Part shown: in pieces, positions 11,632 through 27,286 of the stretch
Position numbering within the stretch: position 1 is the stretch's first letter
How the letters are laid out: each line of letters starts with the position of its first letter
NCBI GenBank assembly: GCA_947589415.1
Contig: CANQBP010000009.1
Span: forward strand, 1 to 64,000
Direction: 5' to 3'
From: an uncultured Clostridia bacterium
GTDB lineage: Bacteria; Bacillota; Clostridia; Oscillospirales; Acutalibacteraceae
DNA length: 64,000 nt
Translations under genes and position numbers: made by a program
Notes under the pieces: generated by a model
What the model was told of the DNA's origin: nothing
The model's input: only the letters and a program-made list of their open reading frames with translations
Databases searched by the model: none

Positions 11632-12120
11632 TCAATTCGCATAGTTGAGATCCGCAAACGTATCTGCTCCGTTAGGTTTAAGCGGGGTCAAACCGCTTTT
11701 GGGAGGATCACCCAACACGGATATATTTCCGTTGGCATCGTACCCGAATTCATCAAGCCTGCTAAGTAAATCACTCAATCCGCCGTATTCCAATGCCCCT
11801 GCAACAGTACATCTTCTTGCGCATCCCATTTTTGTGCTTGTCGGCGCAACCTTATTTGGTATCAGATCACCCGATTGAGCAGCTGTAAAATTATCTCTAT
11901 TGATTTCTCCGCTTTTTACACCCGTATAATACATTTTACAAGCCTGATCCATCGATGCCGCCTCAGTTTCAAGAGCCGCAGACGATGCAGACTGTATTAT
12001 TGAAATAACGGCGGGAATAGCTATCGCAGCAAGAACCGCCAGAATTGCTACAACAACAACAAGCTCGATCAATGTAAAGCCTTTTCTGCTGCCGACCCGA
12101 ATACATCTTTTCCCTGACAT
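11632..12120 (-). CDS. Type IV pilin / prepilin-type N-terminal methylation protein (pilin 1)
   Basis: RKGFTLIELVVVVAILAVLAAIAIPAV. Confidence 0.92.
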   Translation of the reverse strand: MSGKRCIRVGSRKGFTLIELVVVVAILAVLAAIAIPAVISIIQSASSAALETEAASMDQACKMYYTGVKSGEINRDNFTAAQSGDLIPNKVAPTSTKMGCARRCTVAGALEYGGLSDLLSRLDEFGYDANGNISVLGDPPKSGLTPLKPNGADTFADLNYAN

Positions 12121-12377
12121 ACCATTCTCCCCCCTCTTTTCCTTAACATTCATTCATATATAGGATATATTATAAATATATACTATGTCAATATACTTAA
12201 AAGAATTAAAAAATTTCTTATTTTAGAAATTTAACTCACTTTTTTATATATAATATACAATACTATCATTTACGGTTGGTTTCTATTACTGACATACACT
12301 CCCCTATGCCCAAAAATAGTTATAATTTCTAAATCTCTTTTGCCTTCACATTGTCCCGATAACGTTAGAAAAAATAA

Positions 12378-12406
12378 TTGACATTAAACATAGATAAATA
12401 TATAAT
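12378..12406 (+). promoter_or_regulatory. Consensus promoter of rpn copy 1
   Basis: TTGACA - 17 nt - TATAAT; repeated at 13655-13683. Confidence 0.8.
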
Positions 12407-12431: not shown

Positions 12432-13430
12432 ATGCCTGAAACGGAATTAACGGACAGCAGAACAACAAAACACAAAACCAAAGATAGTGTGTTCTCACGT
12501 CTTTTCACTGACCCTAAAAATATCCTGCAACTGTACAAGGATCTCCACCCCGAAGATACCTCAACAACAGTAGATGATATCCAACCGGAAACTTTGGAAA
12601 CGGTGCTTGTCAACGATATATATAACGATTTAGGATTTATAGTGAAAGACAATGAAAACCCCAAGTATATTCTTTTAATTGAGGCACAAAGTATATGGAC
12701 TGAAAACATAACACTTCGTATGCTTTTCTACGTAACCGAAACATATCGGCGTTTTTTGAAAGCCTCAAAGCAGAGCGAACATATATCAAGAAAGGTATAT
12801 CTTCCGAAACCGGAATTTTATGTTGTCTATACGGGTAACAGAGTTATGCCGGAAGAAGTTTCTCTAAATAAGACCTACTTTGACGGAACAGCACCGCTTG
12901 ACATAAAAGTTAAAGTGCTTACCGCTCCCGGAACTAATACGATTTACGGTCAGTATATAGCTTTCAGCAAGATATATGATCAGCAGAGAAAAATTTACAG
13001 CAACACATTGGACTGCATAAAAGAAACAATTGGAATTTGTCTTGAAAAAGGCTTCCTTTCGGATTTTCTCAATGCACACAAACAGGAGGTAGTTACCATG
13101 TTATCCGAATTATTTGATGAAAAAGCTCTCCGTGAGCAGTACGATATTGCTTTAATGACAGAAAGTGAAGCAAGGGGTCGAGCCATCGGTGAAGCGGCAG
13201 GCGAAGCAAGGGGTCGAGCTATCGGTGAAGCGGCAGGCGAAGCAAGGGGTCGAGCTATTGGTGAAGCGGCAGGCGAAGCAAGAGGCAAGGCGAAAGGTGA
13301 GGAGAACGGATTTCTGAAAGCACTTACAGGTCTTGTAAAGAAAGGGATACTCACGGTTTCGCAGGCGGCGGAGGAAGCGAATTTAAGTATTGCGGAGTTT
13401 GAAACAAAAACCGGGATAAAAGCGACATAA
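12432..13430 (+). CDS. Rpn-family PD-(D/E)XK nuclease / transposase-like protein, copy 1
   Basis: KDSVFSRLFTDPKNILQLYKDLHPED...NDLGFIV...YILLIEAQSIWTENITLRMLFYVTETY; C-terminal EARGRAIGEAAG repeats. Confidence 0.85.
   Translation: MPETELTDSRTTKHKTKDSVFSRLFTDPKNILQLYKDLHPEDTSTTVDDIQPETLETVLVNDIYNDLGFIVKDNENPKYILLIEAQSIWTENITLRMLFYVTETYRRFLKASKQSEHISRKVYLPKPEFYVVYTGNRVMPEEVSLNKTYFDGTAPLDIKVKVLTAPGTNTIYGQYIAFSKIYDQQRKIYSNTLDCIKETIGICLEKGFLSDFLNAHKQEVVTMLSELFDEKALREQYDIALMTESEARGRAIGEAAGEARGRAIGEAAGEARGRAIGEAAGEARGKAKGEENGFLKALTGLVKKGILTVSQAAEEANLSIAEFETKTGIKAT
13098..13430 (+). CDS. Predicted intragenic C-terminal product of rpn copy 1 (110 aa, in frame)
   Basis: AGGAGGT at 13084-13090, 7-nt spacer, ATG 13098, in frame with full-length ORF. 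Confidence 0.5.
   Translation: MLSELFDEKALREQYDIALMTESEARGRAIGEAAGEARGRAIGEAAGEARGRAIGEAAGEARGKAKGEENGFLKALTGLVKKGILTVSQAAEEANLSIAEFETKTGIKAT
13167..13298 (+). repeat. Intragenic repeat, 3 x 36 bp (EARGRAIGEAAG) plus one degenerate unit
   Basis: gaagcaaggggtcgagcyatyggtgaagcggcaggc repeated three times. Confidence 0.95.
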
Positions 13431-13454: not shown

Positions 13455-13491
13455 CAGCCTCGACACTTTAAGGGATTTAGTGTCGGGGCTG
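13455..13491 (+). terminator. Terminator of rpn copy 1
   Basis: cagcctcgacact...agtgtcggggctg stem followed by ttt. Confidence 0.75.
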
Positions 13492-13509: not shown

Positions 13510-13565
13510 TTGGGGTGTGCTTTCTTTCTGATTTTCCCAATGCGCATAAACCGGAGGTAGTTAGT
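13510..13565 (+). pseudogene. Decayed fragment of a third rpn copy between the two intact copies
   Basis: gctttctttctgattttcccaatgcgcataaaccggaggtagttagt resembles gcttcctttcggattttctcaatgcacacaaacaggaggtagttacc at 13051-13097. Confidence 0.65.
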
Positions 13566-13708
13566 CTGACATACACTCCCCTATGCCGAAAAATAGTTAT
13601 AATTTATAAATCCCTGTTGCCTTCACATTGTCCCGATAACGTTAGAAAAAATAATTGACATTATACATAGATAAATATATAATATAATTAAGAAAGAAGG
13701 TGTTTCCG

Positions 13709-14659
13709 ATGCCTGAAACGGAATTAACGGACAGCAGAACAACAAAACACAAAACCAAAGATAGTGTGTTCTCACGTCTTTTCACTGACCCTAAAAATAT
13801 CCTGCAACTGTACAAGGATCTCCACCCCGAAGATACCTCAACAACAGTAGATGATATCCAACCGGAAACTTTGGAAACGGTGCTTGTCAACGATATATAT
13901 AACGATTTAGGATTTATAGTGAAAGACAATGAAAACCCCAAGTATATTCTTTTAATTGAGGCACAAAGTATATGGACTGAAAACATAACACTTCGTATGC
14001 TTTTCTACGTAACCGAAACATATCGGCGTTTTTTGAAAGCCTCAAAGCAGAGCGAACATATATCAAGAAAGGTATATCTTCCGAAACCGGAATTTTATGT
14101 TGTCTATACGGGTAACAGAGTTATGCCGGAAGAAGTTTCTCTAAATAAGACCTACTTTGACGGAACAGCACCGCTTGACATAAAAGTTAAAGTGCTTACC
14201 GCTCCCGGAACTAATACGATTTACGGTCAGTATATAGCTTTCAGCAAGATATATGATCAGCAGAGAAAAATTTACAGCAACACATTGGACTGCATAAAAG
14301 AAACAATTGGAATTTGTCTTGAAAAAGGCTTCCTTTCGGATTTTCTCAATGCACACAAACAGGAGGTAGTTACCATGTTATCCGAATTATTTGATGAAAA
14401 AGCTCTCCGTGAACAATACGATATTGCCCTAATTGCAGAAAGCGAAGCAAGGGGCGAGGCAAGAGGCGAAGCAAGAGGCGAAGCAAGGGGGCGAGCTATC
14501 GGTGAAGCGGCAGGCAAAGCTAAAGGTGAGGAGAACGGATTTCTGAAAGCACTTACAGGGCTTGTAAAGAAAGGGATACTCACGGTTTCGCAGGCGGCGG
14601 AGGAAGCGAATTTAAGTATTGCGGAGTTTGAAACAAAAACCGGGATAAAAGCGACATAA
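13709..14659 (+). CDS. Rpn-family PD-(D/E)XK nuclease / transposase-like protein, copy 2
   Basis: Protein identical to copy 1 except around the C-terminal repeat (IAESEARGEARGEARGEARGRAIGEAAGKAKGEENG). Confidence 0.85.
   Translation: MPETELTDSRTTKHKTKDSVFSRLFTDPKNILQLYKDLHPEDTSTTVDDIQPETLETVLVNDIYNDLGFIVKDNENPKYILLIEAQSIWTENITLRMLFYVTETYRRFLKASKQSEHISRKVYLPKPEFYVVYTGNRVMPEEVSLNKTYFDGTAPLDIKVKVLTAPGTNTIYGQYIAFSKIYDQQRKIYSNTLDCIKETIGICLEKGFLSDFLNAHKQEVVTMLSELFDEKALREQYDIALIAESEARGEARGEARGEARGRAIGEAAGKAKGEENGFLKALTGLVKKGILTVSQAAEEANLSIAEFETKTGIKAT
14375..14659 (+). CDS. Predicted intragenic C-terminal product of rpn copy 2 (94 aa, in frame)
   Basis: AGGAGGT at 14361-14367, 7-nt spacer, ATG 14375. 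Confidence 0.5.
   Translation: MLSELFDEKALREQYDIALIAESEARGEARGEARGEARGRAIGEAAGKAKGEENGFLKALTGLVKKGILTVSQAAEEANLSIAEFETKTGIKAT
14444..14515 (+). repeat. Intragenic repeat, 3 x 12 bp (EARG) plus one 36-bp unit
   Basis: gaagcaaggggc gaggcaagaggc gaagcaagaggc then gaagcaagggggcgagctatcggtgaagcggcaggc. Confidence 0.95.
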
Positions 14660-14682: not shown

Positions 14683-14719
14683 CAGCCCCGACACTTTAAG
14701 GAATTTAGTGTCGGGGCTG
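14683..14719 (+). terminator. Terminator of rpn copy 2
   Basis: cagccccgacact...agtgtcggggctg stem. Confidence 0.75.
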
Positions 14720-14866: not shown

Positions 14867-15403
14867 TTAGTTGTAAAGACCTGCTGTACCACCTACGTTA
14901 CCGAGTGTTGTTGTACCTGCGAGCTGAGCGCTCTCACCAGAGTGAGGATCAGTACCGGTGCCGTCCCAATAATAAATAGTACCCATTGTAAGGTTACCTG
15001 ATGAACTTTTAGCAACTGTAATATAATGGAAGTCAGTGTAGTCAAGGTTTGTACCGTTATACTTCTGAACATCATCAACTTTTACAGCGTTAGCAGCCGT
15101 CTGCTTAGCTGTATTTGAAGCACCCTTAGCTGCTGCAAAACCCACCGGAGTATTATCAGCGTTTTTACTCTCCGTGTTGTTGATAGAACCGGACTTAACA
15201 CCTGCATATACGTTCTTGCAAGCACTGTTGAGTGTTGAAGCATCGGAGTCACCTGCCGAGCTTGAAGCGCTCTGGATAATGTTTACAACTGCCGGAATTG
15301 CGATAGCTGCGAGAATTGCAAGGATTGCAATAACAACTACGAGTTCAACGAGTGTGAAGCCTTTTTTGCTCTGTTTAGCGAGCAGTTTCTGTTGGAGTGT
15401 CAT
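14867..15403 (-). CDS. Type IV pilin / prepilin-type N-terminal methylation protein (pilin 2)
   Basis: KKGFTLVELVVVIAILAILAAIAIPAVVNIIQSASS, paralogous to pilin 1. Confidence 0.95.
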   Translation of the reverse strand: MTLQQKLLAKQSKKGFTLVELVVVIAILAILAAIAIPAVVNIIQSASSSAGDSDASTLNSACKNVYAGVKSGSINNTESKNADNTPVGFAAAKGASNTAKQTAANAVKVDDVQKYNGTNLDYTDFHYITVAKSSSGNLTMGTIYYWDGTGTDPHSGESAQLAGTTTLGNVGGTAGLYN

Positions 15404-25237: not shown

Positions 25238-27286
25238 TTACTCAACCTGATATACCTTGCCGTTTTCTGCAGCAAGACCGTCACTCTTCGGATACTTATT
25301 ACCGCCGTCATCGTCATTAAATATCAATCTGGCATCTTGGATAGTACCCGACTTGATAGTATAGCTGTATGTTCCGTCAGAATTTTTCGTCATGACCTCA
25401 CCCGGCCAATCGGCGATCTTGTCACTTCCGCCTTCCTGATATACATACAAATAAATGTTATCAGACCAATCATCAGGCTTTTTAAAAGTGACAACAATGT
25501 CCGTACCTTCTACCGAGTAAGATGAACCTTCCGTAACCTTGAGTCCTTCTTTCTGTTTTCCGGGGTACTGATTATCTCCGTCATTAAAAATAATCAAAGC
25601 ATCTTTAATATCCTTTGGTACATCATAGGAATATGAACCGCTGCCGTCATTATTCATCTCTACCCCCGGCCATTTTGCATTTTCATCTCCGGAACTGTTA
25701 TAAACATACGCATACACCTTATCTCCCCAGCTGTCAGGTTTCTTAAACGACACACCGGAGCTTGTCTTGGTTTCGGAGCCTGATGCCGAAACGCTGCTTC
25801 CCGAAGAAGATCCCTGCGCTTGTTGTTCGCCGCCGTTACCGCTCATAACAAGCACAACTATTACCACTATTGCTATAATAAGCACGGCAACCACCACTAT
25901 ACCGGCAACAGGCATCTTTTTATTTGCTGTCGTCTGCTGAAGTTGTATGGACGGATTGTTGTTGAGCGGCCCATTCATAGGAATGTCAACATCTACCGGA
26001 GGTCTGCTGTTTTGCTCAAAGTTTTTCTTAAAATTCTCTATGAAATCATCTCCGTCCTCCGGTTGTTCTGTTTTGGGAGATGTTGTCCATTTATTATTCT
26101 CAAATTGATTTGATGTTCCGACAGAATTTGCAGACCATTGACCTGCATTATTTGAATCGACCCTCTGCTGTACGGGTTGTGCAGGAGTAGCCGCTGCTTC
26201 CGTTGACCATTGTCTTTTCGGTTTTGACTCGGTCGGCTGTACGGGTTGTGCAGGAGTAGCCGCTGCTTCCGTTGACCATTGTCTTTTCGGTTTCGACTCG
26301 GTCGGCTGTACGGGTTGTGCGGGAGTCGGTGCTGTTTCCGTTGACCATTGTCTTTTCGGCTTGGACTCGGTCGGCTGTACGGGTTGTGCAGGAGTAGGCG
26401 CTGTTTCCGTTGACCATTGTCTTTTCGGTTTCGACTCGGTCGGCTGTACGGGTTGTGCGGGAGTAGGCGCTGCTTCCGTTGACCATTGTCTTTTCGGTTT
26501 TGACTCGGTCGGCTGTACGGGTTGTGCGGGAGTCGGCGCTGCTTCCGTTGACCTCTGCCTTTGCGGACGTTCAACCGATACCCTGTCAGCCGTCTGAACC
26601 TTCTCCACATTTATCTTTACACCCGAATGACTTGTTTCAGCCTTAGAAATATCCGAACTTTTCATATCGGGAAGTCTGCCCTCAACCTTTTCCTGTTCAA
26701 TAGGAGTGAGCTTGACTGCGGGAGTCTTACGAATTTGCTCAATTGTTATTTCTCTTTCCGGCTGCATAGGAGGTAGTGTACTCGTCAGCTCCTCGGATTT
26801 TATCGGAGTCAGCTCTACTGCCGGCGTATTTGCAATTTTAGACAAAGGAACAGGTCTTTCTATCTCTATCGGCGGCAAAGTTCTTCCGCCGCTCTCCGAC
26901 TGAATTTCGGGAAGTTCGTCCGTATTCCCGCCAAACGATTGCTGTTCATTCTTAACAGCCTGCGGTACATTTTCTGTCCTTGCAGGAGGTTCGGCAGCCG
27001 CCTTTTTTAAAGAGGGGGCAGTCTGCTGTATCGGGGCGGACTGCTGCACCGGAGCATTTTGCTGCGCCGGAGTTGTCTGTTGTATTTGTGCGGGTCTTTC
27101 CTGTACATCGGCAACAGCCGCTTTATCAGCGGTATCTTCTGCCGATGCGGTTTCGTTCTCCAGCCTTTCCGCTTCCATTTCCTCCGCACTCTTATTTTCC
27201 TTGACATTAAATCCGCAGAAAGGACAATTCTCACCGTTATTAACTATTCTGCTGCCGCATCCGGGACAATTTATAAATAATGCCAT
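25238..27286 (-). CDS. Membrane protein with N-terminal zinc ribbon, repetitive Pro-rich linker and two C-terminal CBM26-like starch-binding modules
   Basis: MALFINCPGCGSRIVNNGENCPFCGF; TM MPVAGIVVVAVLIIAIVVIVVLV; two repeats of KKPDxWxDxxYxYVY...WPG..M..DGSYSY...DALIIFNDG. Confidence 0.8.
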   Translation of the reverse strand: MALFINCPGCGSRIVNNGENCPFCGFNVKENKSAEEMEAERLENETASAEDTADKAAVADVQERPAQIQQTTPAQQNAPVQQSAPIQQTAPSLKKAAAEPPARTENVPQAVKNEQQSFGGNTDELPEIQSESGGRTLPPIEIERPVPLSKIANTPAVELTPIKSEELTSTLPPMQPEREITIEQIRKTPAVKLTPIEQEKVEGRLPDMKSSDISKAETSHSGVKINVEKVQTADRVSVERPQRQRSTEAAPTPAQPVQPTESKPKRQWSTEAAPTPAQPVQPTESKPKRQWSTETAPTPAQPVQPTESKPKRQWSTETAPTPAQPVQPTESKPKRQWSTEAAATPAQPVQPTESKPKRQWSTEAAATPAQPVQQRVDSNNAGQWSANSVGTSNQFENNKWTTSPKTEQPEDGDDFIENFKKNFEQNSRPPVDVDIPMNGPLNNNPSIQLQQTTANKKMPVAGIVVVAVLIIAIVVIVVLVMSGNGGEQQAQGSSSGSSVSASGSETKTSSGVSFKKPDSWGDKVYAYVYNSSGDENAKWPGVEMNNDGSGSYSYDVPKDIKDALIIFNDGDNQYPGKQKEGLKVTEGSSYSVEGTDIVVTFKKPDDWSDNIYLYVYQEGGSDKIADWPGEVMTKNSDGTYSYTIKSGTIQDARLIFNDDDGGNKYPKSDGLAAENGKVYQVE
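26165..26551 (-). repeat. 69-bp VNTR, about 5.6 units (STEAAPTPAQPVQPTESKPKRQW)
   Basis: gctgtacgggttgtgcaggagtagccgctgcttccgttgaccattgtcttttcggttttgactcggtcg repeated with few substitutions. Confidence 0.97.

Follow-up and report, generated by a model that had tools for sequence, protein, structure and literature searches.

The window, i.e. the whole 64-kb stretch of DNA from a Clostridia bacterium analysed here, contains two tandem genes for a putative nuclease of the Rpn kind, and each of them carries a Shine-Dalgarno (SD) sequence and an ATG inside its own reading frame. The question raised by this locus is whether the internal site is a genuine translation start, giving a long nuclease and, nested within it, a short C-terminal protein that opposes it. 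In E. coli, such short proteins (RpnS) arise from internal starts in all five rpn genes (Zhong et al. 2023; PMC10327210). An RpnS was also made in E. coli from a C. difficile rpn gene and was lost when the ribosome-binding site and the internal start were mutated. Cognate RpnS inhibits the long form, RpnL, and the addition of one four-residue repeat to one of the partners abolishes inhibition. Separate rpnS genes and tandem rpn arrays have been described, and one plasmid-borne system protects against phage (PMC10327210).

Organization of the tandem rpn locus

All parts of the locus are encoded on the plus strand, and each rpn copy has its own perfect promoter and its own hairpin. Copy 1 (12432..13430) encodes a full-length protein (RpnL) of 332 amino acid residues, consisting of a predicted PD-(D/E)XK nuclease domain and a C-terminal domain, here called S. 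Its promoter (12378..12406) matches TTGACA-N17-TATAAT in 12 of 12 bases, and a terminator-like hairpin with an 11-pair stem and a 13-nt loop follows at 13456..13490. Copy 2 (13709..14659, 316 aa) has a perfect promoter of the same form at 13655..13683, and the hairpin recurs after it, as read from the sequence, at 14684..14718. Between the two copies lies the diverged remnant of a third (13519..13563), which covers the surroundings of its internal SD with 84% identity over 45 nt and has no ATG after it.

The nuclease parts of the two copies (12432-13097 and 13709-14374) show no difference in 666 bases, whereas outside of them five differences were found in 143 bases upstream and seven in the first 69 bases of S. 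The repeat block of copy 1 (13167..13300), located within helix 1 of S, comprises eleven four-residue units (EARG/RAIG/EAAG and others) and that of copy 2 seven, four such units apart; the last 135 bases hold one difference. Such a pattern would result from gene conversion of the nuclease part, or else from a duplication of recent date in which the S region changes rapidly.

Two minus-strand genes (11632-12153 and 14867-15403) flank the rpn pair, and their translations resemble paralogous type IV pilins. Judged by translation, the immediate neighbours are pilin-like genes, topA, dprA and housekeeping genes, surroundings that do not form a defence island, and the rpn locus was unmatched by the PADLOC defence models. 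Elsewhere in the window, a 69-bp tandem repeat occurs at 26167-26553 in 5.6 copies with 94% matches.

Affiliation of the nuclease and the S domain

The nuclease domain matched PF04754 (Transposase_31, YhgA-like) weakly, with 26.2 bits against a cut-off of 21, and remained below the cut-off for PF12784 (PDDEXK_2; 22.6 bits, cut-off 27.4) and TIGR01784 (19.2 bits, cut-off 52.1). Within the predicted active-site stretch, D66-LGF ... E84-A-Q86 (12627..12689), the residues D66, E84 and Q86 do not vary among 29 homologues, and the motif E-x-Q-S is common to E. coli RpnA. The order of strands and helices in the predicted fold fits the PD-(D/E)XK superfamily; a fold search of solved structures (PDB) gave no significant match. 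From its sequence, the window nuclease is probably a divergent Rpn/YhgA-like protein.

The structure model of S, calculated for copy 2, consists of a long helix (residues 8-65) that holds the repeats, followed by helices at 71-77 and 82-89. With a profile of the S domains, E. coli RpnA-S reached 26.5 bits. Solved structures, searched by sequence and by fold, returned only weak helical, HTH-like or unrelated matches, and because the structure searches failed to recover the known structure of RpnA-S, the link to this protein rests on the profile match. At the matching place, E. coli rpnA carries AAGGAG-N6-ATG, encoded by K240-E241 and M244, whose mutation by Zhong et al. eliminated RpnA-S (PMC10327210). 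The profile comparison makes the short form a homologue of this E. coli protein, whose antitoxin function has been demonstrated.

The predicted internal start site in the window

The original prediction described the sequence AGGAGGT at 13084..13090, a 7-nt spacer and an in-frame ATG at 13098, from which a product of 110 aa (13098..13430) would be translated, and a recurrence of this site in copy 2 with the SD at 14361..14367, the ATG at 14375 and a product of 94 aa (14375..14659) with seven four-residue units. Coordinates, frame, spacing and lengths were all reproduced from the sequence. In pairing with the anti-SD, the internal site is indeed the stronger one, with a predicted duplex of -11.6 kcal/mol compared with -6.0 kcal/mol for the site of the full-length start.

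The motif count alone proves nothing, because it lies within chance for a 64-kb window: AGGAGG-N4-10-ATG was seen twice, shuffled sequences gave an expectation of 1.9, and both occurrences represent one duplicated site. Nor do the two copies constitute independent evidence, because their nuclease parts are identical base for base. A scan for an internal promoter of S, of the type reported in E. coli, gave only sites with 9 of the 12 bases matching; in all, 13 promoter-like sites were detected, compared with 8.3 ± 3.2 in shuffles.

Selection on the internal site across homologues

Homologues were gathered within the family, order and class to which the window belongs and in a species-level genome collection. 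In total, 139 distinct proteins were aligned, and those spanning the site fell into 71 clusters at 85% nucleotide identity. Reshuffling of synonymous codons gene by gene gave a median p of 0.11 for SD strength; p did not exceed 0.05 in 13 of the 68 genes, and the effect was significant only in aggregate. Codon-level contrasts were preferred over this approach because the peptide itself permits an SD.

The glutamate codon that bears the SD (E219) is GAG in 67 of the 69 homologue clusters (97%). The share of GAG elsewhere in the same nuclease domains is 42%, and at E217, two residues earlier, it is 11%. P-values on such counts would overstate independence because the sequences are related; the column at E217 serves as a control for kinship, having the same tree and the opposite codon bias. 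The codon preceding the SD glutamate ends in G in 60 of 70 cases (25 expected). Glu-Val is spelled GGAGGT at the site in 55 of 65 cases. In neighbouring genes this spelling accounts for 21 of 186 such pairs, and glutamate before valine is encoded by GAG at 43%. Among representatives with less than 55% nucleotide identity (n = 17), all 16 with a glutamate use GAG. An ATG is kept in 69 of the 71 clusters, at codon 223 in 33 and at codon 224 in 36, its position shifting by one codon between subfamilies, and is absent in two. Of 68 genes, 58 have an internal site that outscores whichever site is strongest around the full-length start. This conservation at synonymous positions, unlike the motif count, constitutes strong sequence evidence that the internal site is real. 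Judged by these codon patterns, selection acts on the nucleotides of the internal start across Clostridia.

Free-standing S genes in relatives

Of the 125 long genes with enough downstream sequence, 18, in 9 of the 71 clusters, have the C-terminal part encoded once more in a gene of its own downstream. At locus L009, a member of the window's subfamily, and in a Monoglobus-labelled group, the homology of the free S to its parent begins at the SD itself; at L066, L067 and L139 it begins tens of bases before the SD. Upstream of the shared stretch (L009, L066, L067 and L139) the sequences are unrelated. At L149 and L104 the free S shares a longer stretch with its parent, and at L035, L104 and L017 the SD looks decayed. 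Several lineages thus possess S as a translation unit of its own, copied from a point at the internal ribosome-binding site or close to it.

The genome from which the window derives contains further cases. On contig C27, an S copy beginning at its parent's internal ATG lies downstream of a different Rpn type (L008). GGAGG-N8-ATG occupies the internal site in the long genes of both L008 and L007, and this second Rpn type is accompanied by at least one extra gene for the C-terminal domain, with differing repeat numbers (L008, 1459-1824 and 1842-2087; L007, 1814-2187). In a closer paralogue at the start of C27 (L004, 1-382), a frameshift interrupts the long frame immediately ahead of the SD, and the S frame is open with a good SD; this frame split may be an assembly fault, as it lies at the contig edge. 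The window itself holds no intact free-standing S, only the 45-nt remnant around an SD.

The 12 free S copies with intact tails never equal the adjacent long gene in length. The gap amounts to multiples of four in the repeat block, between 4 and 20 residues, a mismatch in repeat number that is suggestive only, because most of these copies come from one genus. In the array G758, the repeat block of the free S equals that of the first long gene of the array and not that of its neighbour; mixed arrays of long and free S genes also occur at L034, L030, L050, L138, L156 and other loci. Based on the mismatches and on array G758, free RpnS genes might represent stored immunities against other Rpn toxins, i.e. 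array siblings or toxins incoming on mobile DNA, rather than antidotes to their neighbours. The window copies could then be one enzyme with two keys, the nuclease part held identical by gene conversion as the repeat key diverges. We regard this extension as speculative and rather unlikely. A plasmid search yielded no relatives, and a search of phage records three distant partial matches.

Proposed function and alternative explanations

The best explanation of the locus, to which we assign a probability of about 0.88, is a nuclease toxin with an intragenic antitoxin, each rpn copy giving rise to two proteins from one gene. RpnL (332 or 316 aa) would be a PD-(D/E)XK nuclease with toxic activity as long as it is unbound. 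Ribosomes loading at the internal AGGAGGT would produce RpnS (110 or 94 aa), composed of the C-terminal repeat helix and a small helical tail, and pairing of RpnS with the same helix of RpnL would keep the nuclease off. The stronger internal site would favour an excess of antidote, and the number of four-residue repeats would decide which long and short forms fit each other. If repeat number sets this fit, the two copies (eleven versus seven units) should form two separate toxin-antidote pairs; following the published repeat rule (PMC10327210), the short form of copy 1 should not neutralise the long form of copy 2, nor the short form of copy 2 the long form of copy 1. By analogy with E. coli, we infer that the short product is made in this organism and neutralises the long one. 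Inhibition, matching of repeat lengths and a possible role in phage defence are extrapolated from Zhong et al. (2023). The nested-antitoxin nuclease that was originally predicted gains support from the likeness to Rpn proteins, the selection on the internal start, the free S copies and the homology to RpnA-S.

Three other explanations were weighed. The SD-like sequence could be a by-product of the need to encode a conserved peptide, (K/Q)-E-V-V-x-M, with no start at this position. In its favour are the good conservation of this peptide and a motif count that chance alone could give in the window. Against it, the synonymous bias is strong and confined to this site, with GAG at 97% as opposed to 42% elsewhere, 11% two codons earlier and 43% for glutamate before valine in neighbouring genes. 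The codon contrasts, the GGAGGT counts and the low-identity representatives largely refute this explanation, and with free-standing copies that start at the site we consider it very improbable. The same low standing is given to a ribosome pause, selected at the domain boundary as an aid to folding of the nuclease and not as a start. The site does lie between the nuclease and the C-terminal domain, and pausing would likewise select synonymous bases. A pause needs no start codon, however, and an ATG at a workable distance is present in 69 of 71 clusters; moreover, S occurs as a separate gene with the same site, and RpnS has been observed in E. coli and from the C. difficile gene (PMC10327210).

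The remaining alternative accepts the short form as a product and concerns its role, namely that of an accessory subunit of the active nuclease rather than an antitoxin. Other intragenic products are complementary subunits, e.g. Cas11d for Cas10d (PMC10327210), and the 12 intact free S copies never match the repeat number of the adjacent gene. Yet in E. coli, RpnA-S, RpnB-S and the other short forms that were assayed act as inhibitors of their long forms (PMC10327210), and the S domain encoded here is by profile a homolog of RpnA-S. An accessory subunit appears improbable, if slightly less so than a coding by-product or a pause, and an antitoxin remains the preferred role.

Comparison with known Rpn systems

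The premise of the original prediction, that short C-terminal proteins of E. coli Rpn nucleases antagonise the full-length enzyme, agrees with Zhong et al. (2023; PMC10327210). No later experimental study of Rpn short forms turned up in the literature collection searched. The notion of a Clostridia version is not new, since RpnS from a C. difficile gene had already been expressed in 2023 (PMC10327210). This gene, likewise from Gram-positive Clostridia and compared here by description, gives its short form through a ribosome-binding site and an internal start.

With the E. coli RpnL/RpnS systems (rpnA-E and rpnP2) the window genes share the PD-(D/E)XK domain, an internal SD and ATG located where the C-terminal domain begins, and variable four-residue repeats within helix 1 of the short form, whose predicted helices resemble those published for RpnA-S. 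Downstream rpnS genes at some copies and tandem rpn arrays are features common to E. coli and the Rpn family studied here. The window genes differ from those of E. coli in a nuclease domain of very divergent sequence and in forming two tandem copies with identical nuclease parts, and their repeats (7-11 units) start about 23 residues after the internal methionine, compared with 8-20 in Zhong et al. (PMC10327210). E. coli rpnE with its downstream rpnE-S (ypaA) provides the parallel for a free antitoxin-domain gene beside a full-length gene, as seen at L009, L008 and other loci; in contrast, the window holds only the 45-nt remnant.

The locus fits the published RpnL/RpnS kind in every respect testable from sequence and is assigned to it rather than to a new kind. 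The gene-within-gene arrangement, described for E. coli and one C. difficile gene, would thereby extend to a divergent branch of Clostridia, with a quantitative test of selection on the internal start over many species. Identical nuclease parts with different repeat counts provide a natural experiment on repeat number and toxin-antidote specificity.
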